From positions 1-17,585 of the forward strand of contig SKZJ01000290.1 of NCBI GenBank assembly GCA_007127425.1: 17,585 nt of DNA, written 5' to 3'. This document shows, in pieces, positions 210-14,173 of the stretch. How positions within the stretch are numbered: position 1 is the stretch's first letter; every line of letters begins with the position of its first letter. The DNA comes from Wenzhouxiangella sp. (GTDB taxonomy: Bacteria > Pseudomonadota > Gammaproteobacteria > Xanthomonadales > Wenzhouxiangellaceae). The notes below the pieces were generated by a model. The model was not told the DNA's origin. It worked only from the letters and a program-made list of their open reading frames with translations, and made no database searches. The position numbers and the translations under genes are program-made.

Positions 210-890
210 CTACCCGACCGTCCGCAACTCGAGCATGGCATAGCGTCCATGCGTGACCACGACCCTTCCGGTCGTGAACGTGAGCGGATAGGCGAACGGG
301 GGGCCATCATGCACGAAGGTATGGAACTCACCATTCTCGCCGCAAGGATCCACATCGACGGGAAGCTCGTCGAGAAAGCTGCGATCGTAGCGACGCCCGA
401 GAAAGCGCTCGGGCAGCTTCTCCGTATCCACACAGGTGACGGTCAGGGACCAGCCGTCTCCGATCAGGCGCTCGGCCAACCGTTCCGTCGGCTCCTGCCA
501 GAGCGGAAAGATCGGCGTCCAGCCAAGACGCTCGAACAATGCCTCCCGCCACCGGCGGATATCTCCCAGAAACAGATCACCGCAGGCGACGTGTTCGATA
601 CCGCGCTCGCGAAAGGGCGCCAGGCCGGCAGACAGCCGCTGCTCATAACCGGCGTTGTCGCAGTCCTCCGGCAGGCCGACCAGCACCAGTGGAACGCCCA
701 GGGCATCGGCCTGGGCTCGAATCAGTGATTCGGGGGTGCCGTGCATGGCCACACGGCCGTTGGTTTCGTTGACCGTGGTCAGCAGCGCGCCGACCTCCCA
801 CCGGGGGTCGGCGCGCAGATAATCGAACATGACCAGGCTGTCCTTGCCGCCGGATGACAGCACCACGACGGCTTGCGGCTCCGGCGACAT
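210..890 (-). CDS. DUF71/COG2102 PP-loop ATPase, Dph6-like
   Basis: A 226-residue protein of the adenine-nucleotide alpha-hydrolase (PP-loop) superfamily. The ATP-binding PP-loop SGGKDS is at residues 13-18. The family signatures GDLFLGDIRRWRE (near 104-116) and PCGENGEFHTFV (near 182-193) are present, and length is normal for the family. Archaeal and eukaryotic relatives (Dph6) amidate diphthine on EF-2; bacteria lack diphthamide, and comparative genomics has proposed other roles such as B12 salvage for some bacterial members, so the substrate is unknown here. Its ATG directly follows the TAG stop of the RND gene (TAGATG). The nearest purine-rich SD-like stretch is about 18 nt away, too far, so translation probably depends on reinitiation after the RND gene. 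It is cytoplasmic, the only gene of the train without an envelope role. Confidence 0.88.
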   Translation of the reverse strand: MSPEPQAVVVLSSGGKDSLVMFDYLRADPRWEVGALLTTVNETNGRVAMHGTPESLIRAQADALGVPLVLVGLPEDCDNAGYEQRLSAGLAPFRERGIEHVACGDLFLGDIRRWREALFERLGWTPIFPLWQEPTERLAERLIGDGWSLTVTCVDTEKLPERFLGRRYDRSFLDELPVDVDPCGENGEFHTFVHDGPPFAYPLTFTTGRVVVTHGRYAMLELRTVG

Positions 891-3365
891 CTATCGGATT
901 CGCACCGGCTCCTTCCAGGCCAGCAGCACACGGGCCAGGGCAGGCAGCAGCAGCATGGCGCCAATCATGTTGAAGATGAACATGAAGGCCAGCAACACGC
1001 CCATGTCGGCCTGGAACTGCAGGTCGGAGAACAGCCAGGTGCCCACGCCAACAGCCAGGGTAAGCGCCGTGAAGAACACGGCCTTGCCGGTCAGCCGCAG
1101 TGTTCGCATATAGGCCTCATCCAGGGTCAGACCTTCCTGCATGAAACTTCGCATGCGGCTGAAGATGTAGATGCCGTAGTCCACCCCGATACCGACACCC
1201 AGCGCCACCACCGGCAGGGTGTTGACCTTCAGCCCAATACCCATCCAGGCCATGAGGGTATAGGCCAGGTAGCTGACCAGCACCAGTGGTAGCACAATGC
1301 ACAGGGTACCCATGATGCTGCGGAAGGTGATCAGGCACAGGATGATGATGGCTGAATACACATACAGCAACATCGGGGTCTGGGCGGCCTCGACCACTTC
1401 GTTGGTCGCGGCCATCACACCGACGTTGCCCGTAGCCAGACGGAACTTGAGACATTCTTCGCACGGCTCGCCTTCCTGCCTCAGCAAGCCCTCGACCACC
1501 TCACCCGGACCGGTGAAGTCGAGCAGATCCTCGACGTAGATTTCGTCCCTGAGCTCGCGCACCCGATTGACCACACGGATGATGGTCTCGGCACGGTGGT
1601 CTTCGGTGAACATCATGACCGGCATGGCGCTGCAGTCGCGATTGAGCAGCCCGGTATCGGTGTCGATGTTCTGCAGGTTCTGGCGCATGATGAAGTTGTT
1701 GCGCGGCAGCACCTTCCAGCGCAGGTTGCCCTCGTTCCAGCCGGCATTCACCTGCTTGGCCACCATCGGCAACGAGACCACCTGCTGCACACCCTCGACG
1801 TTGTACATCTGCCAGGAAAAGCGATCAATGGCTTCCATCACCGCATAGGACTCGGTGCAGGCCTCCGGTACGGTCTCAGCGATGACCGAAATCAGGTCGG
1901 TGCCGAGCGAAAACTTTTCGGCGATCAGGCGGGCGTCCTGGTTGTAGCGGGCATCCTCACGAAGCTCGGGCACACCGGGCTGTGAATCACCGATCTGCAG
2001 GTTCTGCGACTGGATCCAGGCAAAGGCGAACAGGCCGACACCGGCAATGATGGCGACCAGCGCCACCCGCGGACGGGTAAACGATGCAATCGCATTCCAG
2101 ATGATGCTGGGCTTCTGAGCCGCCTCGTACTGCTTCCGTCGCTTGTGGTCCTCGCGGTGCAGGCGCACGTAGGACAACAGGATCGGTAACAGCAACAGGT
2201 TGGTGAAGATAATGACGGCCACACCGATGCTGGCGGTGATGGCCAATTCCTGGATGATGCGGATATTGATCAGCAGGATGGTCAGGAAACCGATGGTATC
2301 GCTGATCAGCGCGATCGATCCGGGGGCCAGCAAGCGGGCGAATGTGGCCTTGGCTGCGTCAAGACTGGAGAGTGGCTTGACGTCTTCCAGCGGGATGCCG
2401 GACTGCGCCAGCCCGGCGGCGGAATGTCCGCCAAAGAACTTCTCGGCCGACCACCCGCTGATCATCTGTACCCCGTGACTGACCCCGATGGCGAACACCA
2501 GGAAGGGCGTGAGGATGTTCATCGGATCGATGCCGAAACCCAACAGGCTCAGAATACCGAGCTGCCAGATCACAGCCACCGTCGAACAGGCCAGGGGCAG
2601 CACGGTCAGCCAGACCGAGCCGGAATACCAGTACAGCAACAGTGCGGTGATCAGGAAGGCGACGCCGAAATAAGCCACCACACCGCGCGCACCGTCGGCG
2701 ATGTCGCCGACAATCTTGGCGAAACCGATGATGTGTACCGAGTGCTGCTCATTCTCGAATTCCGTGCGAATGGATTCCAGACGATGAGCCACATCCTGAT
2801 AGTCCAGTGTTTCGCCTGTCGAGGGGTCGCGCTCGAGCAGGTTCGCCCAGACCATGGCTCCGGAGAAGTCTTCCGCGACCAGCCTGCCGACCTCTCCCGA
2901 CTTGACGATGTTCGAGCGCACCCGTTCGAACATCTCCGGTGACGGCGAGAAGTCTGCCGGAATGACATTGCCGCCGGCAAAGCCGTCTTCGACCACCTCG
3001 ACGAACCGCACATTGGGTGTGAAGATGGAGCGGACGCTGGCCCGATCAACGCCAGGAATGAAAAAGACCCGATTGCTGACCTGCTCGAAATCCGCAAAGA
3101 ACTCGGGCGTGAACATGTCTCCGTCGCGGGACTGCAATGCGACCATCACGCGGTTGGCGCCGCCAAACTCCCGCTCGTAGTCGAGGAAGGTCTGCATGAA
3201 CTCGTGTTCGAGCGGCAACTGCTTCATGAAGCCGGCGTCGACACGAAGTTGGCTCATGTAGAAGCCCATGGCCACTGTACCGAGCAGAAAGACCAGTAGC
3301 ACCAGGGGCCGGATGCGGAATACGGCATCGGCGATGCGCCGGGTCAGCGTATTGGATTCACTCAT
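891..3365 (-). CDS. RND/MMPL-superfamily exporter, 12 TM
   Basis: An 824-residue inner-membrane transporter of the COG1033/MMPL type. Layout: TM1 at 19-37, a large periplasmic domain 38-225, TM2-TM6 between 226 and 400, TM7 at 432-451, a second periplasmic domain 452-660, and TM8-TM12 between 663 and 814. This is the duplicated 6+6 arrangement of RND pumps without the AcrB-style docking length. TM10 carries GVDYGIY (D729, Y730), typical of proton-relay residues in MMPL proteins; the matching TM4 segment reads GVSHGVQ (S296, H297). The second periplasmic domain has a CxxC pair (C635, C638). Family members such as HpnN and MmpL3 move lipids, so a hydrophobic substrate is likely but unproven. 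Its ATG overlaps the end of the YCF48 gene by 8 nt (ATGAGTGA), which implies coupled translation and a shared complex. Confidence 0.92.
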   Translation of the reverse strand: MSESNTLTRRIADAVFRIRPLVLLVFLLGTVAMGFYMSQLRVDAGFMKQLPLEHEFMQTFLDYEREFGGANRVMVALQSRDGDMFTPEFFADFEQVSNRVFFIPGVDRASVRSIFTPNVRFVEVVEDGFAGGNVIPADFSPSPEMFERVRSNIVKSGEVGRLVAEDFSGAMVWANLLERDPSTGETLDYQDVAHRLESIRTEFENEQHSVHIIGFAKIVGDIADGARGVVAYFGVAFLITALLLYWYSGSVWLTVLPLACSTVAVIWQLGILSLLGFGIDPMNILTPFLVFAIGVSHGVQMISGWSAEKFFGGHSAAGLAQSGIPLEDVKPLSSLDAAKATFARLLAPGSIALISDTIGFLTILLINIRIIQELAITASIGVAVIIFTNLLLLPILLSYVRLHREDHKRRKQYEAAQKPSIIWNAIASFTRPRVALVAIIAGVGLFAFAWIQSQNLQIGDSQPGVPELREDARYNQDARLIAEKFSLGTDLISVIAETVPEACTESYAVMEAIDRFSWQMYNVEGVQQVVSLPMVAKQVNAGWNEGNLRWKVLPRNNFIMRQNLQNIDTDTGLLNRDCSAMPVMMFTEDHRAETIIRVVNRVRELRDEIYVEDLLDFTGPGEVVEGLLRQEGEPCEECLKFRLATGNVGVMAATNEVVEAAQTPMLLYVYSAIIILCLITFRSIMGTLCIVLPLVLVSYLAYTLMAWMGIGLKVNTLPVVALGVGIGVDYGIYIFSRMRSFMQEGLTLDEAYMRTLRLTGKAVFFTALTLAVGVGTWLFSDLQFQADMGVLLAFMFIFNMIGAMLLLPALARVLLAWKEPVRIR

Positions 3366-4446
3366 ACTTCAGCCCATCCTCTCCGGCCAAAATCAGGTTG
3401 CCACTTTCAGTGATCAGAACCGCGGCATAGTCACTACCCAGTCGATCCTCGCGCAGTCGGAATACGTTCTGGGTCAGATCGTACCTGAGGACGGCAGCAC
3501 CGGTCCCGACCATCACCGGATCGCCGTTGGCATCGACGGCACCGCCCATCAGACTCGACGATAATCCGGAGTCCAGGACGTCCCAGGAATCACCGAAATC
3601 ATCGCTGTACTGGACGTTACCGCGCAAACCGAAGGCCAGGACACCGTCGTTGGCCGCCAACAGTCCGAACATCGAGCCGGGGTAGGGAAAACGGAAGCTC
3701 TCCCAGGTCTCGCCGCCATCGGTGCTGCGGAAACCGTAGCCACGCTCGGCAGCGATCATCAAGCGACCGGCGCCAAGATCCAGCAGGGCATTGAGGTGAC
3801 ACTCCATGAACTCGTAGCAGCCGCGATCAAAGTCCGCCCCGGCATCGTACAGATCGTCGTCCCAATCGTGGGTATCATCGGTCACCGCGTCATCGGCCAG
3901 TTCCTCGACGAACTCGGCCGCCTCATCCCAGTCGATGGCTTCGGAGGTCACCAGATCGGCCATCTCGAAGACTTCCCAGTCGCGGCCGGCATTGTCCGTT
4001 CGCATGAACAAACCGTAGGCGCCCACGGCAATGCCTTCATTGGAATTGAAGAATCGCACGTCGAGCAGCGGCCGCTCCCATTCCGGCTCGAAGTGTTGCA
4101 GGCTCCAGGTGTCGCCCATGTCCCGGCTGTGGATGATGGTGCTGTCATGGCCGACGGCCCACAAGCGACCACCGGCGAATGCAACCCGCGTGAGCGTGGC
4201 CGAAACCGGCACAAAACGGGCCTGCTCCCATTCGCGTCCATCGCGGGAGACGACTACGTGCCCGCGCTCCCCGACAGCGACATAGCGCTCGCCAGCACGC
4301 ACCACGTCGAGCATCAGGGACTTGTGCGCCAGGCCGGCAGGGTCCGCGGGCCGCGGTTCGATTTCGAATTCCGCCTCCTGCGCCAAACCCGACCCCATGA
4401 TCGGCAACAAAAGACAGATCAGCAATAGCTGCTTGGAAAATCGCAT
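3358..4446 (-). CDS. YCF48/BNR-type periplasmic beta-propeller protein
   Basis: A 362-residue exported protein. I chose the ATG at 4446 over the in-frame GTG at 4455 because AGGGG sits 8 nt before the ATG and overlaps the GTG. The N-terminus is a Sec signal peptide ending near GSGLA, followed by QEAEF. The mature part contains at least five Asp-box (BNR) elements, S-x-D-x-G-x-x-W-like, near residues 67, 107, 149, 240 and 280, as in sialidase-type and YCF48 propellers. Between the third and fourth lies a very acidic insert (about residues 170-209), then a Cys pair seven positions apart. Propellers of this family act as assembly factors or scaffolds; YCF48 itself assists photosystem II assembly. 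Next to DUF1329 and RND genes a scaffold or adaptor between pump and outer-membrane parts is plausible, but this is inference. Confidence 0.82.
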   Translation of the reverse strand: MRFSKQLLLICLLLPIMGSGLAQEAEFEIEPRPADPAGLAHKSLMLDVVRAGERYVAVGERGHVVVSRDGREWEQARFVPVSATLTRVAFAGGRLWAVGHDSTIIHSRDMGDTWSLQHFEPEWERPLLDVRFFNSNEGIAVGAYGLFMRTDNAGRDWEVFEMADLVTSEAIDWDEAAEFVEELADDAVTDDTHDWDDDLYDAGADFDRGCYEFMECHLNALLDLGAGRLMIAAERGYGFRSTDGGETWESFRFPYPGSMFGLLAANDGVLAFGLRGNVQYSDDFGDSWDVLDSGLSSSLMGGAVDANGDPVMVGTGAAVLRYDLTQNVFRLREDRLGSDYAAVLITESGNLILAGEDGLKYE

Positions 4447-4454
4447 GATTTGCA

Positions 4455-4459
4455 CCCCT
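4455..4459 (-). promoter_or_regulatory. Shine-Dalgarno deciding the YCF48 start
   Basis: AGGGG on the minus strand lies 8 nt before the ATG at 4446. The alternative GTG start at 4455 would overlap this element and has no SD of its own. Confidence 0.55.
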
Positions 4460-4501
4460 GGAGCGGAATACCCTTTCTGGATCTGGAACTTGCAGACTAC
4501 A

Positions 4502-4525
4502 GGACCGACCGCAGTGGGTCGGCCC
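4502..4525 (-). other. Stem-loop in the 109-nt gap between DUF1329 and YCF48 genes
   Basis: CCGACC (4505-4510) pairs with GGTCGG (4517-4522) around a 6-nt loop, and two more G-C pairs follow after one mismatch. No T-tract follows on the minus strand, so it is not a standard intrinsic terminator. In a polycistronic mRNA it could set 3'-end stability or partial attenuation between the lipase-barrel-lipoprotein part and the propeller-pump part of the train. It occupies the only sizeable gap inside the gene train. Confidence 0.4.
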
Positions 4526-4555
4526 TGACAGTCCTAGTCCTGGACTTGTTCGTCG

Positions 4556-6427
4556 CTAGCGTCGTCCCCTGGTCCGCAAGGCCTGCGGCGTATAGTTGCT
4601 GGGGCTCAGCTCGACATTGAACGTATTGACCGGATCCTGGTTGTCCAGACCCGTGGCCACGAAGCGTCCGGACTGCAGGTCCATGTGGGTCTCGATCGAT
4701 GACCAGTAGGTCGGCACGTCATAGTAGTTGATGGTGTGAGCCTCGGAGGCACGCCACAGGTTGCCGCGCTGGTCGTAATGATCGATCAGGGCGATCTGGT
4801 AGGTGTCTTCATCGAGGTAGAAGGTCCGGCGCGGATTGATATGGCGGGTGCCGTCCCGCAGCGTGGCCTCGATCACCCACACCCGGTGCAGTTCGTAGCG
4901 CATGTACTCGGGATTGAGGTGGCCCGGGCGCACCAGGTCGTTGGCGGTGATGTCGCCGCTATGCGCATCGTAGGAATTGTACGGGATGTACATTTCGCGC
5001 TTTTCGACGATCTCCCAGTTGAAACGGTCCATGGCACCATTGAACATGTCGGTCATGTCGTTGGTGCGCAGGCCGTCCGATGCCGTACCCGGGTTGTCAT
5101 AGGCGACATTGGGCGCACGACGCACACGGCGCTGACCGGGATTGTAGATCCAGGCCTGGCGCGGCGTTTCGATCTGGTTGAGCGACTCGTGCACCAGCAG
5201 GATGTTGCCGGCCAGGCGTGCCGGGGACTCCACTTCCTGGAAAAAGTACAGCAGGATGTTGTTGGTGTCCTCGATGGTCATGCCTTCGCGGTAATACAGA
5301 CCGAGCAGTTCTTCACGCAGGCGAATGAGCTGGAAGCTGCCGCCCGCGGTCGGCACGACCTGGTTGTTGTAGCGCGTGCCGCCAATACCCTTGTACTTGA
5401 GCTTGTGGTTCCACATCAACTCATAGGCGTTTTGCGGCAACGGGAACGGGAAACCCTCGGCGGCGTCGGCCACGCCCTCACCGTTGCCCACCAGGCGACT
5501 GGTTTCGGCATTTTGCCGGGTCATCTCGTAGATGCGCTCAGGGAAGGAAGCCGAGCGGCGCGACGGATAGACCGTCATGTAATAAGTGTCCGGGTAGCGC
5601 TCGAAGGTCGCGATCTGACCGGCCGATAGCCTATCTGCGTATTCCTGGTAATTGTCCCCGTTGATCACGAACAGCGGCTCGTCATCGGCAAACGGATTGG
5701 GGTGACGGTCACCTTCCTGGTATCCGTCCGGCCAGTCATCGCGGCCCAGTCCACCTTCCCAGGCCGGGATGGTGCCTTCCTCATTGCCGGCACGAATCGA
5801 CCCCATCGGGGTCAGATCGTCGCCCAGGCGCGCGACATTTTCCGGCGTGCGCTCGATGATGCCCGACACGTCCTCGGAGCCAATGTCAGCATCGCCCCGT
5901 GTCTGGGCTTCCGGAGCGGAATCCGTGGCCATGTCCTCTTCGGCTGCTGCGGCTTCTGCCTCGGCCATCGCCACCTGGCGTGCTTCTTCTTCGGCAGCAC
6001 GACGCTCAGCCTCGGCCCGCTCTTCGGCGGCCAGGCGCTCGGCTTCAGCTTGCTCTGCAGCGCGGCGTTCGGCTTCGGCTCGTTCGGCCGCCAGCCGCTC
6101 GGCCTCGGCCTGTTCAGCGGCGCGGCGCTCGGCGTCTGCCTGCTCGGCGGCCAGGCGTTCCGCCTCGGCTTGTTCGGCGGCACGACGTTCGGCTTGACGT
6201 TGCTCGGCGGCACGACGCTCCGCTTCACGCTGCTCGGCGGCGGCCTCTGCCTCATCGGCTTCACGCCTTTCGGCTTCCCGGGCCTCGAAGCGATCGGTAA
6301 CGGACGATTCTTCAGCCGGTGCCGGCTGGTCACCCGTTGCCGGAGCGGTGCCGCAGCCGACCAGCAGGCCGCCAAGGAATACTGCGGCGAAGATCTTGAG
6401 TTTCATTTGCATATTGTGAACTGGCAT
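4556..6427 (-). CDS. DUF1329 (LolB-like) outer-membrane lipoprotein with helical repeat tether
   Basis: A 623-residue protein. GGAGGT 9 nt upstream supports the first ATG. A short signal peptide ends in the lipobox LLVGC with Cys25 as the lipidated residue; Gly at +2 argues for Lol sorting to the outer membrane. Residues about 45-166 are Ala/Glu/Arg rich, with eight decapeptide units of the type AERRAAEQAE (residues 69-148), predicted as one long charged helix. The DUF1329 domain begins near 190 with LGDDLTPMGSIRAGNEEGTIP and runs to the end, giving the usual domain length of roughly 430 residues. DUF1329 is related to the LolA/LolB lipid-carrier fold and is commonly found beside DUF1302. A tethered periplasmic carrier of a hydrophobic molecule between the RND pump and the DUF1302 barrel is the best guess. 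Its start is 18 nt after the DUF1302 stop. Confidence 0.88.
   Translation of the reverse strand: MPVHNMQMKLKIFAAVFLGGLLVGCGTAPATGDQPAPAEESSVTDRFEAREAERREADEAEAAAEQREAERRAAEQRQAERRAAEQAEAERLAAEQADAERRAAEQAEAERLAAERAEAERRAAEQAEAERLAAEERAEAERRAAEEEARQVAMAEAEAAAAEEDMATDSAPEAQTRGDADIGSEDVSGIIERTPENVARLGDDLTPMGSIRAGNEEGTIPAWEGGLGRDDWPDGYQEGDRHPNPFADDEPLFVINGDNYQEYADRLSAGQIATFERYPDTYYMTVYPSRRSASFPERIYEMTRQNAETSRLVGNGEGVADAAEGFPFPLPQNAYELMWNHKLKYKGIGGTRYNNQVVPTAGGSFQLIRLREELLGLYYREGMTIEDTNNILLYFFQEVESPARLAGNILLVHESLNQIETPRQAWIYNPGQRRVRRAPNVAYDNPGTASDGLRTNDMTDMFNGAMDRFNWEIVEKREMYIPYNSYDAHSGDITANDLVRPGHLNPEYMRYELHRVWVIEATLRDGTRHINPRRTFYLDEDTYQIALIDHYDQRGNLWRASEAHTINYYDVPTYWSSIETHMDLQSGRFVATGLDNQDPVNTFNVELSPSNYTPQALRTRGRR
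5984..6223 (-). repeat. 30-bp coding tandem repeat (decapeptide AERRAAEQAE), 8 units
   Basis: Inside the DUF1329 lipoprotein gene. Units alternate AERRAAEQAE and AERLAAEQAE with small changes (ADAER, ERAEAER). One extra Glu sits near residue 136, so the tenth-residue phase slips once. The DNA units are alike but not identical, and indels of 30 bp would keep frame. Confidence 0.9.
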
Positions 6428-6445
6428 TGGAATGTGACCTCCGCG

Positions 6446-8332
6446 TCAGAATGAGTAGCTCAGGGAAGCCGAGACGAAGTCTCGGTCCTTGAGCAGGTTG
6501 TTATTGCCGGCACCGAAAAACGAGGTGTAGGCAATGTCGGCGCGCCACCGGGCCTGGTAGTCGAAACCCAGCCCGAAGGTCAGCTGCTTGCGCCCTTCGA
6601 CAAAGTTGCCGCCCGGTCCCGGGGATACCCCGTCGACGTCATGGTTGAACGCCAGTCGCGGCGTCATGTTCCAGGGCGTGCCGAACACACTGTTGTAGGT
6701 CGGCGCCACCACCAGGCGATACCCCCAGCTCGTGTCGGTCACGAATCCGTCCGTCGTGGTGACCGGGTTGCGCAGGTTGCCGCCTGTAACAATAGACGGT
6801 CCACCCCCGGTGTCAGTTCCCGGACCCTCGAAGCGCAACACGCTTTCGTCGGGCAGGTTCCAGACATGAGTGACACCGACTTCACCGACGACGACAACCT
6901 GGGCCGCACCGATCGGGTTATTGGGACCGTACAGGCGGGTAAATGTGGCCTGGGCCTGGGAAACGTCGCGACGCTCGTAACCCTGGATGAACTCACCCGG
7001 CTCGTACTCGCCGAGCTGGCTGCGGAAACGCAGGGCTTCCTCCGGCAACAGGGAGTTGAGCGGCGACAGGCCGGCGAACAGCAGCTCGACGTCGTCGATC
7101 TGCACCGGCACGTTGTCCCGGTAGCTGACTTCGCCCCCCACCGACCACTGGCCGATGTTGGTGTTGATGCTGGCACCGAACAGGTTGATGTCTTCCGGGT
7201 ACTCGACAATCACGCGGCCCGAGCGTGCCTCGGTCGTCGTTACCGCCTGGCCCGAAAGTACCGGCAGTCGGCTGTGATAGCGCAGGTAATAGAGGCCCAT
7301 CTCGCTGTCGAAGAACCACGGCGCGAAGTAGCGCGCTGCCAAGCCCCACTGCCCGCTGTCACGGGCGCGGTTATCATTGCCGCGTGGGAAGGAAGCGCTG
7401 CAACCGGCTGCCACGAGTTGCGGCGGCAGGTCCTTGTCGCTGGCACCGAAGTTGCCTTGATTGCAGACCGTGTCGTAAAGATCGGGGTTCTGCACCGGCT
7501 GCGGCACCAGGCCGAAGTTGAGCATGGCATAACGGCCGCCGGCGGTGGCAAAGTCGTTGGTGGCGAAGAAGGTCCCGACGGGCTCGGCCTCGACCCGGCC
7601 CCACTCGAACAGCGCCACACCTTCCAGCGACAGGTTCGGCGTCAGGTCGATATTGCCCCACAGCATGTTGAGCGGCAGGAAGGCATCGCGCAATTCCGCC
7701 CCGGCGGTGCGCAACGCGGTGACATCGACCGGATTGATCGTGTTGATGCCGCCGGCGAGGAAGGTGCTTTCACCCCAGCTCACGACCTGACGGCCGGCAC
7801 GCAGCGACAGTACGCGATCGCCGATATCAAAGTTGCCCCAGACGTAGGCATCAAGAAGACGCCCGCGTTCACCAACCCGGTCCTTCGCGCCTTCCGACAG
7901 CTCGTCCATTTCATTGAGCGTGAAGTCGTAGAAGTAGTTGCCGCGAACGAAGGCACCGTAGTTCTGGTAGTTGATATCCAGCTCGGAGGTGACGCGGGCC
8001 GCGTTGAAGATCGGGTCCCACTGGTCGAAGTTCAGGTTGCCGTCGTCGGAGTTGGCCGAAAATCGGCCGGGTGCGGCGATCTGGTCCTGAATGGGTGCCT
8101 GGAAAATTGTCGGATTGAAGTGCGACTTGGCGATCAGGTCTGCATCACGCTCTTGCGTACGGAAACCGATGCCGTAGCTGACGGTGGTATCAAGGGTGAT
8201 GCTGACATTCTCGGTGCTGAGATCCAGCGCCGAAGCGTGTTGCGCCGACAGGGCGAGGCCGATCGCGCAGGCCAGAAGGCCCGGACGCAAACTGAGACCG
8301 TGCCGACGTGTTTTGAATTCTTGCCTATTCAT
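6446..8332 (-). CDS. DUF1302 outer-membrane beta-barrel protein
   Basis: A 628-residue protein with AGGGAGA 8 nt upstream of its ATG. The N-terminus has a long Sec signal peptide (twin Arg near 9-10, hydrophobic core 18-30) cleaved near QHASA/LDLS at residue 36. The mature part alternates polar and hydrophobic residues with many aromatic girdle residues, and contains the DUF1302 hallmark RAGRQVVSWGEST (about 178-190). It ends in SLSYSF with a C-terminal Phe, the signature recognised by the BAM machinery. Two cysteines (C290, C311) may form an extracellular-loop disulfide. DUF1302 proteins have no established substrate; they co-occur with DUF1329 and RND genes and often with lipid or steroid metabolism. 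It lies 16 nt after the lipase stop. Location in the outer membrane is well supported, transport direction is not. Confidence 0.9.
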   Translation of the reverse strand: MNRQEFKTRRHGLSLRPGLLACAIGLALSAQHASALDLSTENVSITLDTTVSYGIGFRTQERDADLIAKSHFNPTIFQAPIQDQIAAPGRFSANSDDGNLNFDQWDPIFNAARVTSELDINYQNYGAFVRGNYFYDFTLNEMDELSEGAKDRVGERGRLLDAYVWGNFDIGDRVLSLRAGRQVVSWGESTFLAGGINTINPVDVTALRTAGAELRDAFLPLNMLWGNIDLTPNLSLEGVALFEWGRVEAEPVGTFFATNDFATAGGRYAMLNFGLVPQPVQNPDLYDTVCNQGNFGASDKDLPPQLVAAGCSASFPRGNDNRARDSGQWGLAARYFAPWFFDSEMGLYYLRYHSRLPVLSGQAVTTTEARSGRVIVEYPEDINLFGASINTNIGQWSVGGEVSYRDNVPVQIDDVELLFAGLSPLNSLLPEEALRFRSQLGEYEPGEFIQGYERRDVSQAQATFTRLYGPNNPIGAAQVVVVGEVGVTHVWNLPDESVLRFEGPGTDTGGGPSIVTGGNLRNPVTTTDGFVTDTSWGYRLVVAPTYNSVFGTPWNMTPRLAFNHDVDGVSPGPGGNFVEGRKQLTFGLGFDYQARWRADIAYTSFFGAGNNNLLKDRDFVSASLSYSF

Positions 8333-8348
8333 TATCTAAGTCTCCCTG

Positions 8349-10484
8349 TCAGTCGGTCTTGATGATGGACGGATTGCTGATGACGACCTGTGCGCCACCG
8401 GACGCCACCATGCTGGCCGCCTGCCCCTGCATTTCGGCCGTAGCGGCCGGAGAAGCGCTCGGGTCAAGCAGCGATCCGTGGCTGCCTTCGAGCATGCGCA
8501 CCACACCGCGAATACCCATCGGATCGGTGGTGGTCTCGACGATCGGATCCAGGCCCATGACGGCGATCAGCGGCTCGGTACCCGACAACGGCGCGCCCGG
8601 GACGAAGTTCGGCACCACCGTGTCGCCTGCCACCTGCTGCAGGAGAATGCTGTTGGTCATGACCGCCTGTGCGCCCCAGTTGATCGGGTCGGCCGAATCG
8701 ATAACCGTCTGCGCGGCCAGCAGGAACTGGAAATATTCGGGCGAGAAGGGCTCGACCCCGGCCTGCCGCAGGCCTTCCCGAATGACCGGGCCGAACGTGT
8801 CCGATCCGGACAGCAGGTTGGCGATACCACCACCCGGTGCCGACAGCACGCCGTTGTTGACCGTCGGTTCCACGGCCAGGAAGTTGGTTCCGACCATGCC
8901 GCCGAGGGACAAGCCGACCAGGTTGATATTGGAACCGTCAAGGTCCGAAACGCCGTCGCCGTTGATGTCCATCTGCGGAACGTTGAGCGCCAGCACCGAC
9001 AGGTCGGCCTGGGCCTGGCGCAGGTTGTCGCGCGAGACCAGCAGGTTTTGCAGGTTGATGAACCACTGGCCGGAGCTGTCGAGGGTCTGGCCGTCACCCA
9101 GCGTCAGGTCGAAGGTTCGCTCGTTGGCAAACTGCCCGAAAGGCGTGTTGCCGACATAGAGCGGACTGGCGACGTCGGTAATCCCGTGCAACGGCATATC
9201 GATGGAAATCACGGCAAAACCGATCGAGGCCATGGTATCGGCCAGCGCCAGCATCTGCGAGCGATTGCCGGTAATGCCGTGCTGGAAGATCACCACCGGC
9301 CAGCCGGCGGTCGGCCGCACGTGGCCGGAATTCTGGTTGGGGACCGTCATCAGCACCGGCGCAAATTGACGCGCGGTTTCCACCGGAAACGGATTGGCGA
9401 CCGTGATATTGGTCGAGGTCGGATCCAGGCCGAACTGATCGAACGGCGGAATGTAGGCACCGGGCTCGGCCTGCCAGAAACGCCGCAACGGGGTTGGGTC
9501 GACCGAGCTTTCGGGGATGCCGAGATAGTACGGCAGTTCCACTGCACCGATGTAGAGGTCGGCGATCCCCGGCGATGCACCCGGTGGCAGCACGTCGGCC
9601 GTAGTCAGGCAGGCGCCGGGTGCGGCGCAGGCCTGGGCAATCTGGCTTGACGTCGGCTGGGCCATCGAACGCACGGCTTCGGCAACCGGCGTAATCGACT
9701 GAGTCGTGGCGGTGAACGACAGCACCACGCTGTCGCGGCCGATTCCCTGCCCACCGGCAGCCGCCAGGTGCGTATTGATCAGCTGACGCAGGGGCTCAAG
9801 TGCCCGGGCGGTCTGGTTGTCGAGCAGCGGATCGGTGCTGATGCCGTCGCTGGTCACCAGCGGGTCGGGCCGCTTGGCCAGGAAGTAGGCCTGGGCCGGC
9901 GTCGCCGGATTGCCATTGGCGTCGCGGATCCCGTCGGTGACGACGGCCATGTAGCCGGTCATCTGCTGCAGTGGTCGGAGCGGCACGACGGCGACAGTAC
10001 GACCGCTGGGGTCGGACGGCGCAATCGCGGTGACGAAATCCTGGCCCGGGACCAGCTCGCGATTGACGCCGGTCACCGCCGCCGTACCCTGCGCGAACGA
10101 CACCTCAAAGAAGCGCACGTTGCTGCCCGGCACGATCGAATCGGGATCCGGTGCGACCGAGAAACTGAAGGTCCATGGTGCCACGGTGCTGAACCCGTCG
10201 AGCGTGCTCATGGCGGCGAGCGGATCGCTGAAATCGGTGGGGTCGTCAGCCGGCAGGTTGAGCGTCAGATCGGTCGTACCCGAGAGCAACAGGCTGTTGG
10301 GGAAGGGAATGACACCGGCGGCCGGATCGAACCGGGCGGTGATGACCCCGTCGACAGGACGTCCCTCGGGATTGGTAACGGGTGGCGCGGGCGTGGCCCG
10401 ATCGACGTCCGAGCTCCCGCCGCAGCCGATCACTAACAGCAGCGGCATGAGCGCGAGCGCCATGTAACGGCATGACTTCATCAT
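8349..10484 (-). CDS. VolA/Pla-1/cef-family lipoprotein lipase
   Basis: A 711-residue exported lipase. The frame is open further upstream to a TTG at 10559, but the ATG at 10484 (or the adjacent ATG at 10481) follows GGGGAG by 5 (or 8) nt and gives a proper lipoprotein signal ending in VIGC, Cys21, with Gly at +2 (outer-membrane sorting). Residues 47-80 (TARFDPAAGVIPFPNSLLL) match the N-terminal domain of bacterial virulence-factor lipases. The alpha/beta-hydrolase part has an oxyanion segment FQHGITGNRSQ (400-410), a nucleophile elbow GLSLGG with Ser526, a likely acid Asp621 (GDTVVPN) and His669 (EGSHGSLL). A Ca-loop-like D-x-N-x-D-G stretch (506-516) sits just before the elbow. In Vibrio, VolA cuts lysophospholipids at the cell surface and pairs with FadL; here the barrel partner is DUF1302. 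First gene of the train. Confidence 0.87.
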   Translation of the reverse strand: MMKSCRYMALALMPLLLVIGCGGSSDVDRATPAPPVTNPEGRPVDGVITARFDPAAGVIPFPNSLLLSGTTDLTLNLPADDPTDFSDPLAAMSTLDGFSTVAPWTFSFSVAPDPDSIVPGSNVRFFEVSFAQGTAAVTGVNRELVPGQDFVTAIAPSDPSGRTVAVVPLRPLQQMTGYMAVVTDGIRDANGNPATPAQAYFLAKRPDPLVTSDGISTDPLLDNQTARALEPLRQLINTHLAAAGGQGIGRDSVVLSFTATTQSITPVAEAVRSMAQPTSSQIAQACAAPGACLTTADVLPPGASPGIADLYIGAVELPYYLGIPESSVDPTPLRRFWQAEPGAYIPPFDQFGLDPTSTNITVANPFPVETARQFAPVLMTVPNQNSGHVRPTAGWPVVIFQHGITGNRSQMLALADTMASIGFAVISIDMPLHGITDVASPLYVGNTPFGQFANERTFDLTLGDGQTLDSSGQWFINLQNLLVSRDNLRQAQADLSVLALNVPQMDINGDGVSDLDGSNINLVGLSLGGMVGTNFLAVEPTVNNGVLSAPGGGIANLLSGSDTFGPVIREGLRQAGVEPFSPEYFQFLLAAQTVIDSADPINWGAQAVMTNSILLQQVAGDTVVPNFVPGAPLSGTEPLIAVMGLDPIVETTTDPMGIRGVVRMLEGSHGSLLDPSASPAATAEMQGQAASMVASGGAQVVISNPSIIKTD

Positions 10485-10489
10485 TTTTA

Positions 10490-10495
10490 CTCCCC
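10490..10495 (-). promoter_or_regulatory. Shine-Dalgarno deciding the lipase start
   Basis: GGGGAG on the minus strand is 5 nt before ATG 10484 and 8 nt before ATG 10481. The upstream TTG extension (10485-10559) would overlap the predicted 5' leader and has no signal-peptide logic. Confidence 0.6.
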
Positions 10496-10563
10496 GAAGC
10501 AGAAGGCTTTTTGGTTTATCGATACTGCCGAGTATGGTGCAAATCCGACAGATCCACAAATGT

Positions 10564-10593
10564 ATGATATGAACAGAATCTTAATTTTTGCAA
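10564..10593 (-). promoter_or_regulatory. Candidate sigma70 promoter of the lipase-RND gene train
   Basis: On the minus strand TTGCAA (10588-10593, 4/6 to TTGACA) is followed after 18 nt by TATCAT (10564-10569, 5/6 to TATAAT). The spacer is AT-rich in an otherwise GC-rich region. It would give a leader of about 70 nt before ATG 10484. It is the only convincing promoter-like pair upstream of the train. Confidence 0.45.
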
Positions 10594-10691: not shown

Positions 10692-11963
10692 ATGGGCAAG
10701 AGGAAAGAGGGTCTGCTGGCCGCGCTCGGGCCGGGGTTGCTGATGGCAGGCGCCGCCGTCGGCGTGTCTCACCTGGTGCAGTCGACCCGTGCCGGTGCCG
10801 AGTACGGACTCGCCCTGCTCGGCGTGGTCATCATCGCCTGCCTGGTCAAGTACCCCTTCCTCGAGTTCGGACCGCGCTATGCCGCGGCGACCGGGCAGAG
10901 CCTGATCAGCGGCTATCGCAAACTGGGCGAATGGGCACTGGGACTGTTCACGCTGATCACACTGGGCACCATGTTCATCATCCAGGCCAGCGTGACCCTG
11001 GTTACCGCCGGACTGGCCGGCATGGTGTTCGGTCTGGACTGGACCGTCACCCAGCTCTCCTTTGCCGTACTGATCGGTTGCATCGTCATCCTGACGATCG
11101 GCAAGTACCAGGGCCTCGACCTGATCATGAAGATCATCATGGCCGTGCTGGCGGTATCCACCCTGGCGGCCGTCGCCTTCGCCTTCGGGGCCGAGCCGGA
11201 CTGGGAAGTCCTGCACCCCGCGTTCGGCTGGGACGCAGTATGGACGGCAGCCGGATTCGCCTTCGTGCTCGCGCTGCTGGGCTGGATGCCGATTCCGCTC
11301 GACGTCGCCGCCTGGCACTCCCTGTGGACGCTGGAGCGGGCCGAACAGACCGGCCACCGGCCCAGTGTCCGTCATGCCGTCATCGACTTCCGCATCGGTT
11401 ATATCGGTGCCACGGTACTGGCGGTGCTGTTCCTGCTGCTCGGCGCAATGGTGATGTACGGCAGCGGCACCTCGCTGCCGGAATCCGCCGTCGCCTTTTC
11501 AGCCGCACTGGTCGAGCTCTATGCCGTCACCCTGGGCGAATGGGCGCGCCCGGTCATCGCCATTGCAGCGCTCACCACCATGTTCTCGACCACGCTAGCG
11601 GTGACCGACGCCTATCCGCGCGTGATCCGCGCCCTGATCGAAATCAGCGGCGTGGCCGACGAAGAGGACAAGGCCCCCAACCTGCATCGCGGGCGCTATG
11701 TCACCGGCCTGCTGCTGGTGACCATCGGCGCCATGATCATCATCCATTACTTCGGCGAGCGCTTCACCCTGCTGATCGACTTCGCCACCACGGTATCATT
11801 CCTGGCCGCACCAGTACTGGCCTGGCTGAACATCCGGGTGGTCACCAGCGAACACATGCCGGCCGAACACCGCCCGGGGCCCTGGTTGACGATGCTGGCC
11901 TGGACCGGCTTCTGGTTCCTGGTGGTCTTCTGCCTGATCTGGGCAGGATGGAGGATTTTCTGA
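10692..11963 (+). CDS. Divergent Nramp-family (SLC11-like) transporter
   Basis: A 423-residue, about 11-TM membrane protein; GAGGG lies 5 nt before the ATG. The N-terminus GPGLLMAGAAVG, the segment STRAGAEYGL (31-40) and KYPFLEFGPRYAAATGQSL show the Nramp fold. Yet the helix-1 metal motif, normally DPGN, reads GVSH (24-27), and the helix-6 motif, normally MPH, reads MPIPLDV (199-205), keeping the Met and Pro but not the His. Canonical Nramps carry Mn2+/Fe2+ with protons through those residues, so this member probably moves something else or binds metal differently. TM segments are otherwise complete and the frame is intact. It is transcribed away from the lipase gene train and is alone on its strand, ending at a stem-loop. 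Family assignment is firm enough; substrate is unknown. Confidence 0.8.
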   Translation: MGKRKEGLLAALGPGLLMAGAAVGVSHLVQSTRAGAEYGLALLGVVIIACLVKYPFLEFGPRYAAATGQSLISGYRKLGEWALGLFTLITLGTMFIIQASVTLVTAGLAGMVFGLDWTVTQLSFAVLIGCIVILTIGKYQGLDLIMKIIMAVLAVSTLAAVAFAFGAEPDWEVLHPAFGWDAVWTAAGFAFVLALLGWMPIPLDVAAWHSLWTLERAEQTGHRPSVRHAVIDFRIGYIGATVLAVLFLLLGAMVMYGSGTSLPESAVAFSAALVELYAVTLGEWARPVIAIAALTTMFSTTLAVTDAYPRVIRALIEISGVADEEDKAPNLHRGRYVTGLLLVTIGAMIIIHYFGERFTLLIDFATTVSFLAAPVLAWLNIRVVTSEHMPAEHRPGPWLTMLAWTGFWFLVVFCLIWAGWRIF

Positions 11964-12023: not shown

Positions 12024-12090
12024 CCAAAGCACCAAATCTCAAGCACCAAATCCGAAACAAATTCCAAGCACAAAAATCCAAATTTCCAAA
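12024..12090 (+). repeat. Degenerate heptamer array, plus orientation (copy A)
   Basis: An A/C-rich run of units such as AGCACCA, AATCCGA, AACAAAT and TCCAAGC, sharply different in base composition from its GC-rich surroundings. It contains AAGCACCAAATCCGAAACAA at 12041-12060, repeated inverted in copy B. It lies between the Nramp-like gene and the 3' end of the DUF885 gene. The rest of this spacer (11998-12023, 12091-12127) shows no gene. Confidence 0.8.
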
Positions 12091-12127
12091 CGGCGGTGGT
12101 GTCCAGACCGGACGGTTCGGGATAGCC

Positions 12128-14173
12128 TCAAGGCGGGATTGGCCCTTGCCGACAATCCGCCGCGGAGTTCACCACCTGAGCATCGGCACCAGCCTGTCGG
12201 CCTGACGTCACGCCCGTTTCGGTCATTGGAATTTTGGTCCTTGGTGCTTGTTTCGGATTTGGTGCTTCGTATTTCGAATTTCGTACTTCGTATTTCCATT
12301 GCCCTCCGTCGGGGGCCTTAAAGCCTCCACTCCCCCCACCCCCATCGTCGATCCACTGATCGATCACACCATCAAGCAGGTCCAGCGGCATGGCGCCGTT
12401 GTCCAGGATCACACGGTGAAAGTCGCGGATGTCGAAGTCATCGCCGAGCGCCTGCTCGGCGCGGTTGCGCATCGCCTGCATGCGCAGCATGCCGATCTTG
12501 AAGGCACAGGCCTGCCCCGGAATGACCAGGTAGCGCTCGATCTCGGCGACCACATCGCTCTCGGACATGCCGGTCGTCTCGAGCATGTACTCGATGCCTT
12601 TCTCGCGCGACCAGCGACGGTCATGCAGGCCGGTATCGACCACCAGTCTCACCGCCCGAAACAGCTCGGCCTGCAGTCGCCCGAGATTGTCGTACGGGTC
12701 ATCGAGCAGCCCCATCTCCGCCGCCAGGTGCTCGGCGTATAGCGCCCAGCCCTCGGCATGCGCATGCAGGCCAAACGAGCGACGAAACGAAGGCACGTCT
12801 TCCATTACCTGCATGCGACTGATCTGCAGGTGGTGCCCCGGCACGGCCTCGTGGTGGGCCAGGGTGGGGAGCGCAAAACGCGGATGCTCGTCGACCGAGC
12901 GCAGGTTGGCGAAAAACACGCCGGGCCGTGAACCGTCGGCGGCCGGGCGCATGTAGTAGGCACGAAACGCTGTGTCCTCGCGATACTCCGGAACCCGCCG
13001 CACTTCCAGTTCGCCGGCCGGCCCTTCATGGAACCAGCCATCCAGCGCTCCCTCGGCCTGTGCGACGATCTCCCGATAGGACTGCAGGATCGCCTCGCGC
13101 CCGTCGTCGGAGTCTTCGAACAGGAACCGTTCATCGGCGTTGAGTGCGGCCATGCGCTCGCCCACCGTGCCGTCGCAACGGTCCTGTGCGCACAAGATAT
13201 CGTCCATCTTCGCCTCGAGGCGCTCCACTTCCTCCAGGCCCAGCCGGTGTATCTCGTCGGGCGTCATCCCGGTGGTGGTATGGCCGCGCAGCACCCAGCG
13301 GTAGTAGTCACTACCATCGGGCAGGCGCCAGACGCCAGCGTTGGAATCGACCCGCTCGATCAATCCCTCCAGGTAGTCGGCGAAGACCCGGTAGGCCGGC
13401 ACCACGTATTCACGCACCACTTGGGCCAGCTCATCCTCCATCCCCTCGCGCCGCTCATCGGACAACACCCCGGCACGGTCGGCACGTGCGAGAAAACGCT
13501 CGACCAGCGGATTGTCGATGGCGGGACCTTCGACGAAGGCGCGGGCGTCACGCACGGTCTTTTCCAATGCGAACCGTGGCGGGTAAAGATCCTGCTCGGC
13601 GCGGTAGGCGACCACCTCGATCGTCCCCTGGAACACGTCGGGAAACTGCATCAGGCGCTGGATGTAGAAGTCGACATCCTCGTCACGGCGCAGCGGGTGC
13701 TGGTCGGTCATGAAGGCCGGCAACAGGTTGTGCACCGCCATCAACTGGTTGACCGGGAAGTCGTGCCACAGGTACTCGGCCCCGGCAATGTGCTGGTCGA
13801 GCTGCCAGGCCATGATGTCCCACGACAGGGCATCCTGCCCGTCCAGCCCGTCACGGTCGAAACGACCCAGCTCGTCGCGGTGACGGCGCGCCATGGCCAA
13901 TTCAGCCTCGGTGCGCTCCACCGAGGGGATATCGAGACGACCGAGGTAGTCGGATTCGCGCTCGGTGCCGGCCACGGCGGCCGCCATGGTCTGCGGACTC
14001 AGTTCGGCACGCTCGCGCTCGACGCGCTGGAAGAAGTCCTGCAAGCTCTCGCCGACCTCCTCGGCCTCCGGCACTTCGACCTCGCGCACCTCGCGCTCGG
14101 CTTCATCGCTGCAAGCGGCCAGCAGCATGACCAGCAACAGCGTCATCAGAACAGTGACTCGCACGACATTCAT
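12128..14173 (-). CDS. DUF885 zinc metallopeptidase-like lipoprotein with array-encoded tail
   Basis: A 681-residue protein from ATG 14173; an in-frame TTG at 14194 is possible, and neither start has a well-placed SD (GGAG abuts the ATG). The lipoprotein signal ends LLAAC, Cys21. The DUF885 body includes HHEAVPGHHLQ (about 440-450), an HExxxGHH zinc-site variant, and EGWALYAEHLA (about 474-484), which supplies the downstream Glu ligand. This pairing suggests a peptidase of the envelope, although most DUF885 proteins are uncharacterised. The homologous body ends near GVIDQWID (about 602-609). Then follow a Gly-rich linker and about 55 residues read from the heptamer array and the sequence beyond it: KYEVRNS, KYEAPNP, KQAPRTK. 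The native stop was probably lost or displaced. It stands alone on its strand, divergent from the SLC13 gene. Confidence 0.87.
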   Translation of the reverse strand: MNVVRVTVLMTLLLVMLLAACSDEAEREVREVEVPEAEEVGESLQDFFQRVERERAELSPQTMAAAVAGTERESDYLGRLDIPSVERTEAELAMARRHRDELGRFDRDGLDGQDALSWDIMAWQLDQHIAGAEYLWHDFPVNQLMAVHNLLPAFMTDQHPLRRDEDVDFYIQRLMQFPDVFQGTIEVVAYRAEQDLYPPRFALEKTVRDARAFVEGPAIDNPLVERFLARADRAGVLSDERREGMEDELAQVVREYVVPAYRVFADYLEGLIERVDSNAGVWRLPDGSDYYRWVLRGHTTTGMTPDEIHRLGLEEVERLEAKMDDILCAQDRCDGTVGERMAALNADERFLFEDSDDGREAILQSYREIVAQAEGALDGWFHEGPAGELEVRRVPEYREDTAFRAYYMRPAADGSRPGVFFANLRSVDEHPRFALPTLAHHEAVPGHHLQISRMQVMEDVPSFRRSFGLHAHAEGWALYAEHLAAEMGLLDDPYDNLGRLQAELFRAVRLVVDTGLHDRRWSREKGIEYMLETTGMSESDVVAEIERYLVIPGQACAFKIGMLRMQAMRNRAEQALGDDFDIRDFHRVILDNGAMPLDLLDGVIDQWIDDGGGGSGGFKAPDGGQWKYEVRNSKYEAPNPKQAPRTKIPMTETGVTSGRQAGADAQVVNSAADCRQGPIPP
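12225..12296 (-). repeat. Degenerate heptamer array inside the DUF885 3' end (copy B)
   Basis: Read on the minus strand the units are GAAATAC, GAAGTAC, GAAATTC, GAAATAC, GAAGCAC, CAAATCC, GAAACAA, GCACCAA and GGACCAA. Because three 7-nt units make 21 nt, the translation repeats every seven residues. A 20-bp stretch (12248-12267) is the exact inverse of 12041-12060 in copy A. Confidence 0.9.

Follow-up and report, generated by a model that had tools for sequence, protein, structure and literature searches.

We analysed a stretch of 17,585 nucleotides (nt), hereafter the window, from a Wenzhouxiangella-like metagenome-assembled genome (MAG) whose assembly is 65% complete. The window holds a train of six genes that runs from position 10484 to position 210, all on the minus strand; it begins with a lipase and continues with DUF1302, DUF1329, YCF48, RND and PP-loop genes (Table 1). 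Among the matches listed, the nearest named relative of the lipase is found in a Wenzhouxiangella MAG at 90% identity, and the order concerned is Lysobacterales/Xanthomonadales. A sequence-only reading of the window had placed these six families on one strand, and the profile scores for all six on the minus strand agree with it. The same is true of the intergenic gaps of 16, 18, 100 or 109, -8 and 0 nt, the third of which is 100 nt if the YCF48 gene starts at the GTG at 4455 and 109 nt if it starts at the ATG at 4446. The start of the lipase gene had been placed at the TTG at 10559; it was moved to the ATG at 10484, which is the most likely start and has GGGGAG (10495-10490) in front of it.

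Table 1. Features of the lipase train and their positions in the window.
Feature	Positions	Strand	Basis
Promoter-like TTGCAA-N18-TATCAT upstream of the lipase	10564..10593	-	Hexamers and spacing recur in upstream stretches
VolA/Pla-1 family lipase, lipoprotein	8349..10484	-	TIGR03502 and Lipase_bact_N; lipobox VIGC; GLSLG with Ser526; His669
DUF1302 outer-membrane barrel	6446..8332	-	C-terminal Phe; 18 long predicted strands (our count)
DUF1329, LolA-like carrier, lipoprotein (LVGC) on a long helix	4556..6427	-	PF07044, LolA_like, model and PDB matches
Predicted continuous helix, DUF1329 residues 44-164, A/E/R-rich	5936..6298	-	AlphaFold; tandem repeat; tethered copies
YCF48-like periplasmic propeller	3358..4455	-	PSII_BNR; Ycf48-like structure 2xbg
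RND/MMPL transporter, 12 hydrophobic segments	891..3365	-	Best NCBIfam match HAE3; MmpL4, MmpL3 and HpnN structures
Dph6-like PP-loop ATPase, passenger	210..890	-	PF01902 / Diphthami_syn_2, 105.4 bits

Conservation of the gene train

An order sample of 121 genomes in 12 families (f1 to f12) was searched with profiles for the lipase and for DUF1302; 92 stretches around the matches were collected and the window proteins were mapped onto them. The lipase, DUF1302, DUF1329, YCF48 and RND genes followed one another in this fixed order on one strand in 68 of the 121 genomes (67 and the window) and in 11 of the families, both stretches from the remaining family, f7, being cut. Contig ends interrupt the train in 9 more genomes, and in three others (G056, G075, G116) the four transport genes are present while the lipase model finds no match. 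Recurrence of this arrangement in 68 of 121 genomes cannot be due to chance, and the genes that flank the train differ from family to family. Named lipase loci, taken as the best 80 of at least 539 relatives and drawn in several cases from genomes shared with the order sample, comprised 41 with all five genes, 13 in which lipase and DUF1302, at times joined by further genes, run to the contig end, 5 with FadL and 21 with neither, some of these cut by contig ends. Marinicella pacifica, Chiayiivirga flava, Aquimonas voraii and Wenzhouxiangella limi all have the five-gene train. We conclude that the lipase train is a real operon-like unit that is widespread in the order and a variant of a known, poorly understood transport cassette.

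These results redraw the membership of what had been proposed as a complete trans-envelope lipid system of six genes. The search for conserved neighbourhoods retained one unit with the look of lipid handling across the envelope, in which five of the six families are conserved together. The lipase had been taken for an addition specific to this locus; instead, it co-occurs with the other train genes across the order as their usual first gene and belongs to the unit. The PP-loop gene was rejected as a train component and is best regarded as a passenger, since it follows the train solely in the family of the window, Wenzhouxiangellaceae (f1), in 8 of 67 five-gene stretches and in the window. Its family is present in 38 of the 121 order genomes, 29 of which carry the gene elsewhere; in some of those 29 (for example G009) the train contig is cut and the position of the gene is not comparable. 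A BtuF-like gene lies behind the PP-loop gene in several Wenzhouxiangellaceae stretches.

Further trains were noted on the side. Records named Desulfuromonas and Deltaproteobacteria (L269, L273) contain a complete five-gene train, either by transfer or because the MAGs are misnamed. A distant second kind of train (L151, L152 and L153 in G077, G027 and G112, respectively) has a different gene order and no lipase; it holds a DUF1329-like gene, a DUF1302-like frame of 670 residues, RND and YCF48. In L086 (G056), a second train is followed directly by a FadD-like ligase, whose best model match is under the cut-off, and a WS/DGAT acyltransferase; the flanks of this locus contain the FadD-like ligase, two WS/DGAT acyltransferases, a GMC oxidoreductase and an AidB-type acyl-CoA dehydrogenase, and it is perhaps a wax-ester or triacylglycerol locus.

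Exchange of the lipase neighbour

The neighbours of the lipase were explored more widely in a class sample of 229 genomes. The lipase model matched 40 of them. Seven of these were dropped because they had just one weak stretch (G134, G164, G171, G201, G272, G306, G314), which left 33; neighbours were checked on DNA stretches, G313 excepted. The lipase gene lies within 1.5 kilobases (kb) of a FadL gene in 10 of the 33 (G130, G179, G193, G194, G195, G220, G250, G264, G282, G322) and within 1.5 kb of a DUF1302 gene in 11 (G000, G144, G157, G175, G212, G231, G297, G311, G319, G321, G332), the contig of G157 terminating within DUF1302. Two more (G245, G328) have DUF1302 at 4-7 kb on the same strand. 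In none of the 33 genomes is the lipase flanked by both. The lipase is also paired with FadL in Thiothrix caldifontis and Thiofilum flexile, and it is followed by FadL in one genome of the order sample (G053). In the window itself, DUF1302 and not FadL adjoins the lipase, and its 65%-complete genome gave no match to PF03349 (FadL). On a FastTree phylogeny of 155 lipases, which carried long-branch warnings, the label DUF1302 or FadL requires four changes; the swap therefore seems to have occurred more than once.

Two DUF1302-paired lipases of the class sample, L164 (G144) and L167 (G231), stand without DUF1329, YCF48 or RND in the stretch examined; each of these genomes has five DUF1302 matches.

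Scarcity of FadL in genomes with the train

We next compared the distribution of FadL with that of the train. In the order sample, 80 genomes were classed as train genomes by a DUF1302 match above 535 bits, plus G092; 68 of these have all five genes, 9 are cut by contig ends and 3 lack the lipase. FadL at 180 bits or more was present in 2 of the 80 versus 33 of the other 41 genomes, with a Fisher p of 9e-20 that ignores shared ancestry. The choice of threshold matters little, because FadL scores fall below 90 bits in 83 genomes, between 90 and 180 in only 3, and at 180 or above in 35; at thresholds of 100, 180 and 250 bits, FadL is found in 3, 2 and 2 train genomes. The contrast is also seen within families, with train and FadL in 3 and 15 genomes of f2, 9 and 1 of f4, and 16 and 1 of f9 plus one unresolved; in f12, all 18 genomes have FadL and 2 have the train as well. 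Eight order genomes count as neither, among them G077 with its distant train-like cluster, and G102 with a divergent DUF1302 and G118 with a lipase, both at contig ends. FadB-model matches were obtained in all 121 genomes, weak in some (four of f11). In the class sample, where the criterion was DUF1302 above 500 bits alone and most families were sampled once or twice, a strong DUF1302 match coincided with FadL in 4 of 29 genomes, against 95 of 200 genomes that had FadL without such a match (Fisher 5e-4). Searches of one literature collection for DUF1302 together with FadL, and for FadL together with fatty acid uptake in Xanthomonadales, found nothing.

To take ancestry into account, we used an rpoB tree covering 70 of the 121 order genomes (every f2 and f12 genome, 30 returned as loci and a few that were chosen: G019, G071, G003, G015), in which G019 has a very long branch and an unsure placement. 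Among seven independent pairs, FadL was opposite to the train in 3-4, the same in 0 and without difference in 3-4. The direction is consistent and the test is underpowered (p 0.125-0.25). Since this corrected pattern is not significant and the 121 genomes are for the most part related to one another, lipase and transport genes could in principle stay together through inherited gene order only, with no functional link. We regard this as very improbable: the pair holds together between families whose lipases share about 40% identity and whose flanking genes differ, and the lipase tree demands its four label changes.

Predicted properties of the train proteins

The window lipase scored 404.1 bits against TIGR03502, above the curated cut-off of 383.9. 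Residues G524, S526, G528 and H669 are invariant across 15 aligned lipases, with Ser526 held in the GLSLG motif and His669 as the catalytic histidine, and the VIGC lipobox points to a lipid anchor. The barrel protein matched DUF1302 at 591 bits and no other Pfam family, PF03349 included, and no solved structure related to it by sequence was found. The idea that DUF1302 is a disguised FadL found no support in the sequence and fold comparisons.

The DUF1329 protein scored 476 bits against PF07044 and 33.4 bits against LolA_like (PF17131, threshold 30). Its domain has the LolA fold, with matches to 9tp6 (TM 0.83 by target length), 4z48 and 3bk5. At residues 44-164, AlphaFold predicts a helix of 121 residues in which the 10-residue blocks score 86-95 except at both ends. 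At 0.15 nm per residue the predicted helix is about 18 nm long, which is roughly the width of the periplasm. It is encoded in part by a 30-nt (10-residue) tandem repeat at 6024-6242. Tethered relatives have helix-like runs of 77 to 213 residues, and the lipoprotein-on-helix variant was found in two families. Tandem DUF1329 genes occur in trains L067/L201, L079/L199, L085, L114/L240, L125, L198, L205 and L237; in these pairs one copy is lipid-anchored with a long charged stretch and the other is soluble.

The YCF48-like protein matched PSII_BNR at 41.9 bits and the Ycf48-like structure 2xbg with an E value of 8.6e-12. The RND protein scored 86.7 bits against MMPL and 168.9 bits against its best NCBIfam model, HAE3 TIGR00921, which is under the cut-off of 351.9. 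Its 12 hydrophobic segments leave two long gaps at residues 34-227 and 453-672, in agreement with the 12 transmembrane segments and two large periplasmic loops of the transporter in AmeABCD-type cassettes.

Upstream and neighbouring sequences

The train genes are presumed to be co-transcribed, and the sequence-only reading had pointed to a promoter-like site upstream. As a single match this site is unremarkable: it is one of 3 found by a scan that yields 2.8 in shuffled sequence, and is thus uninformative by itself. Its hexamers and their spacing are nonetheless conserved among relatives. The pattern TTGCAA-N18-TAT[CG]AT, written post hoc from the sequences themselves, is present in 19 of the 73 stretches that precede the lipase, whereas 100 base shuffles gave a mean of 0.01 and a maximum of 1. 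The window and its own family account for 11 of the 19; the other 8 belong to f4, f5 and f10, in which the spacer sequence between the hexamers is altered.

Divergent from the train lies a Nramp-like gene (10692-11963, plus strand), which also stands beside the train in 12 of 18 other f1 stretches; a CitMHS-like transporter occupies its place in many stretches of other families. An AT-rich inverted repeat at 12034-12274, with 57-nt arms that are 77% complementary, overlaps the 3' end of a DUF885 gene whose protein extends about 80 residues past the Pfam domain. The repeat resembles a small intergenic repeat element.

Discussion

We propose that the five-gene lipase operon is an acyl-lipid uptake system that works from the surface inward and stands in for FadL, a reading to which we assign a probability of about 0.58. 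It draws on the computed gene order, its conservation, the change of lipase neighbour, the negative association with FadL and the predicted folds. In this model, the lipase, lipid-anchored at the outer membrane and presumably surface-exposed, would cleave phospholipids, lysolipids or esters outside. The freed fatty acids, or lysolipids, would cross the DUF1302 barrel. The LolA-like DUF1329 protein, tethered in the window by its predicted 121-residue helix, would then pick up the acyl chain in the periplasm. The YCF48 propeller may dock this carrier onto the RND transporter, which would use the proton gradient to move the cargo into the inner membrane. A broader version is more tentative, and we hold it at somewhat under even odds: that DUF1302-DUF1329-YCF48-RND is a second, energised route of fatty-acid uptake in Gram-negative bacteria which displaced FadL repeatedly, kept the same kind of lipase as partner each time and in some lineages moves its cargo on a tethered, periplasm-spanning carrier.

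Published observations on relatives, which we cite from excerpts of the sources, bear on the direction of transport. VolA lipase liberates fatty acids for uptake (PMC9496633, PMC12208996), and in Vibrio cholerae the locus tag of VolA (vca0863) follows that of a FadL homolog (vca0862) (PMC9496633). In Pseudomonas putida, PP_0765, PP_0766, PP_2018 and PP_2019 are required for growth on Tween 20, and contacts among them are predicted (PMC10866462). One proteome table for P. aeruginosa MPAO1 lists a fatty acid-CoA ligase, a DUF1302 and a DUF1329 protein with nearby tags and changes in the same direction (PMC7603352). The sequence-only reading had drawn the path from the inner membrane to the surface. 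Since members of this lipase family stand next to FadL in other lineages and P. putida needs its counterparts of the train genes on Tween 20, we consider the inward direction more likely. Uptake is also the simplest account that covers the partner change and the rarity of FadL as well as the Tween 20 phenotype and the FadD-like and WS/DGAT neighbours.

A number of observations weigh against uptake. A rule-based lipobox is present in just 75 of 111 DUF1302-partnered lipases, and 10 of the 33 class lipases have neither FadL nor DUF1302 as neighbour, two of them (G196, G313) at contig ends. FadL and the train occur together in G012 and G031 of the order sample and in G185, G258, G281 and G328 of the class sample, and the ancestry-corrected test falls short of significance. 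Weak Toluene_X matches (20-102 bits) are present in many train genomes, and the proteins concerned could also act as importers; if they import fatty acids, the argument from FadL exclusion falls. Site patterns of fatty-acid regulators lent no support, being found upstream of the lipase in 0 of 73 stretches for PsrA and 1 of 73 for FadR. The DUF1302 model is an 18-strand barrel without visible likeness to FadL, and the exporter AlgE is nearly as good a fold match as the Occ channels. The solved structures nearest to the RND protein, MmpL4, MmpL3 and HpnN, are named exporters.

The last two points favour an export or tolerance pump, in which RND and its partners would expel toxic hydrophobic compounds, including lipase-freed fatty acids, through DUF1302; MmpL5 also figures among the exporters related to RND in the PDB. 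Deletion of AmeABCD in Castellaniella lowers monoterpene tolerance, from which its authors infer export, and Nile Red is slightly higher in de-energised mutant cells (PMC6394551). The Nile Red difference is slight, however, and the real-time efflux kinetics are almost identical (PMC6394551). With limonene as the only carbon source the Ame mutant grows poorly, which impaired uptake could explain as well; its rescue by acetate and its poorer growth when limonene is high agree better with export. We consider export unlikely overall, as it leaves the pairing of lipase and FadL in other lineages, the negative FadL association and the need on Tween 20 unexplained.

Wenzhouxiangella AB-CW3 lacks lipase activity and does not grow on olive oil (PMC7691419), a further point against the uptake reading. 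This result speaks against triglyceride use, not against the use of lysolipids. A train-bearing genus with a strain that fails to grow on oil would suit a system that recycles outer-membrane lipids of the cell itself, in which the lipase would trim outer-leaflet phospholipids and the train would return lysolipids or fatty acids inward, or carry new lipid outward. The LolA-like carrier and its long tether suit such a fixed route between membranes, and the train is order-wide and not bound to a single catabolic niche. Recycling explains neither why train genomes so rarely have FadL nor the Tween 20 phenotype, and we think it improbable.

DUF1329 genes, whether or not DUF1302 accompanies them, are found in connection with the degradation of phenanthrene, benzene and toluene (PMC3110197, PMC13101534, PMC7012976), which suggests that the transport core probably handles hydrophobic substrates generally and that the lipase marks the acyl-lipid case. 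If the train replaces FadL, a large environmental group of gammaproteobacteria would have a different, probably proton-driven entry route. DUF1302 and DUF1329, which are widespread and of unknown function, and a branch of RND would gain a testable role, and some RND transporters would operate inward. The value of these findings lies in the partner change with FadL, through which a long-standing gap in annotation becomes open to a direct test.

Comparison with known systems

The LolA fold is common to LolA/LolB and the window DUF1329 protein, to which the latter adds a lipid anchor and the predicted helix. The VolA-FadL pair of V. cholerae resembles the train in that a VolA/Pla-1 lipase adjoins an outer-membrane channel by locus tag; it differs in that the channel is FadL, and the excerpts name no dedicated periplasmic carrier or RND pump. 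The P. putida set pairs a multidrug efflux transporter and a further periplasmic protein with DUF1302 and DUF1329. Unlike the train, it lies in two places by locus tag (PP_0765-PP_0766 and PP_2018-PP_2019), and no lipase is mentioned in the excerpt (PMC10866462). The function of such neighbourhoods had been described as not established; this is only partly so, as AmeABCD of Castellaniella defragrans is a studied four-gene relative (PMC6394551). It consists of DUF1302, DUF1329, a photosystem-II-stability-factor-like protein (COG4447) and an HAE3 RND transporter in the order A-B-C-D, and the window matches this one-strand order of DUF1302-DUF1329-YCF48-RND. AmeABCD has no lipase in the cassette and sits in a monoterpene island (PMC6394551), whereas the train has the lipase as its first gene and spreads across the order.

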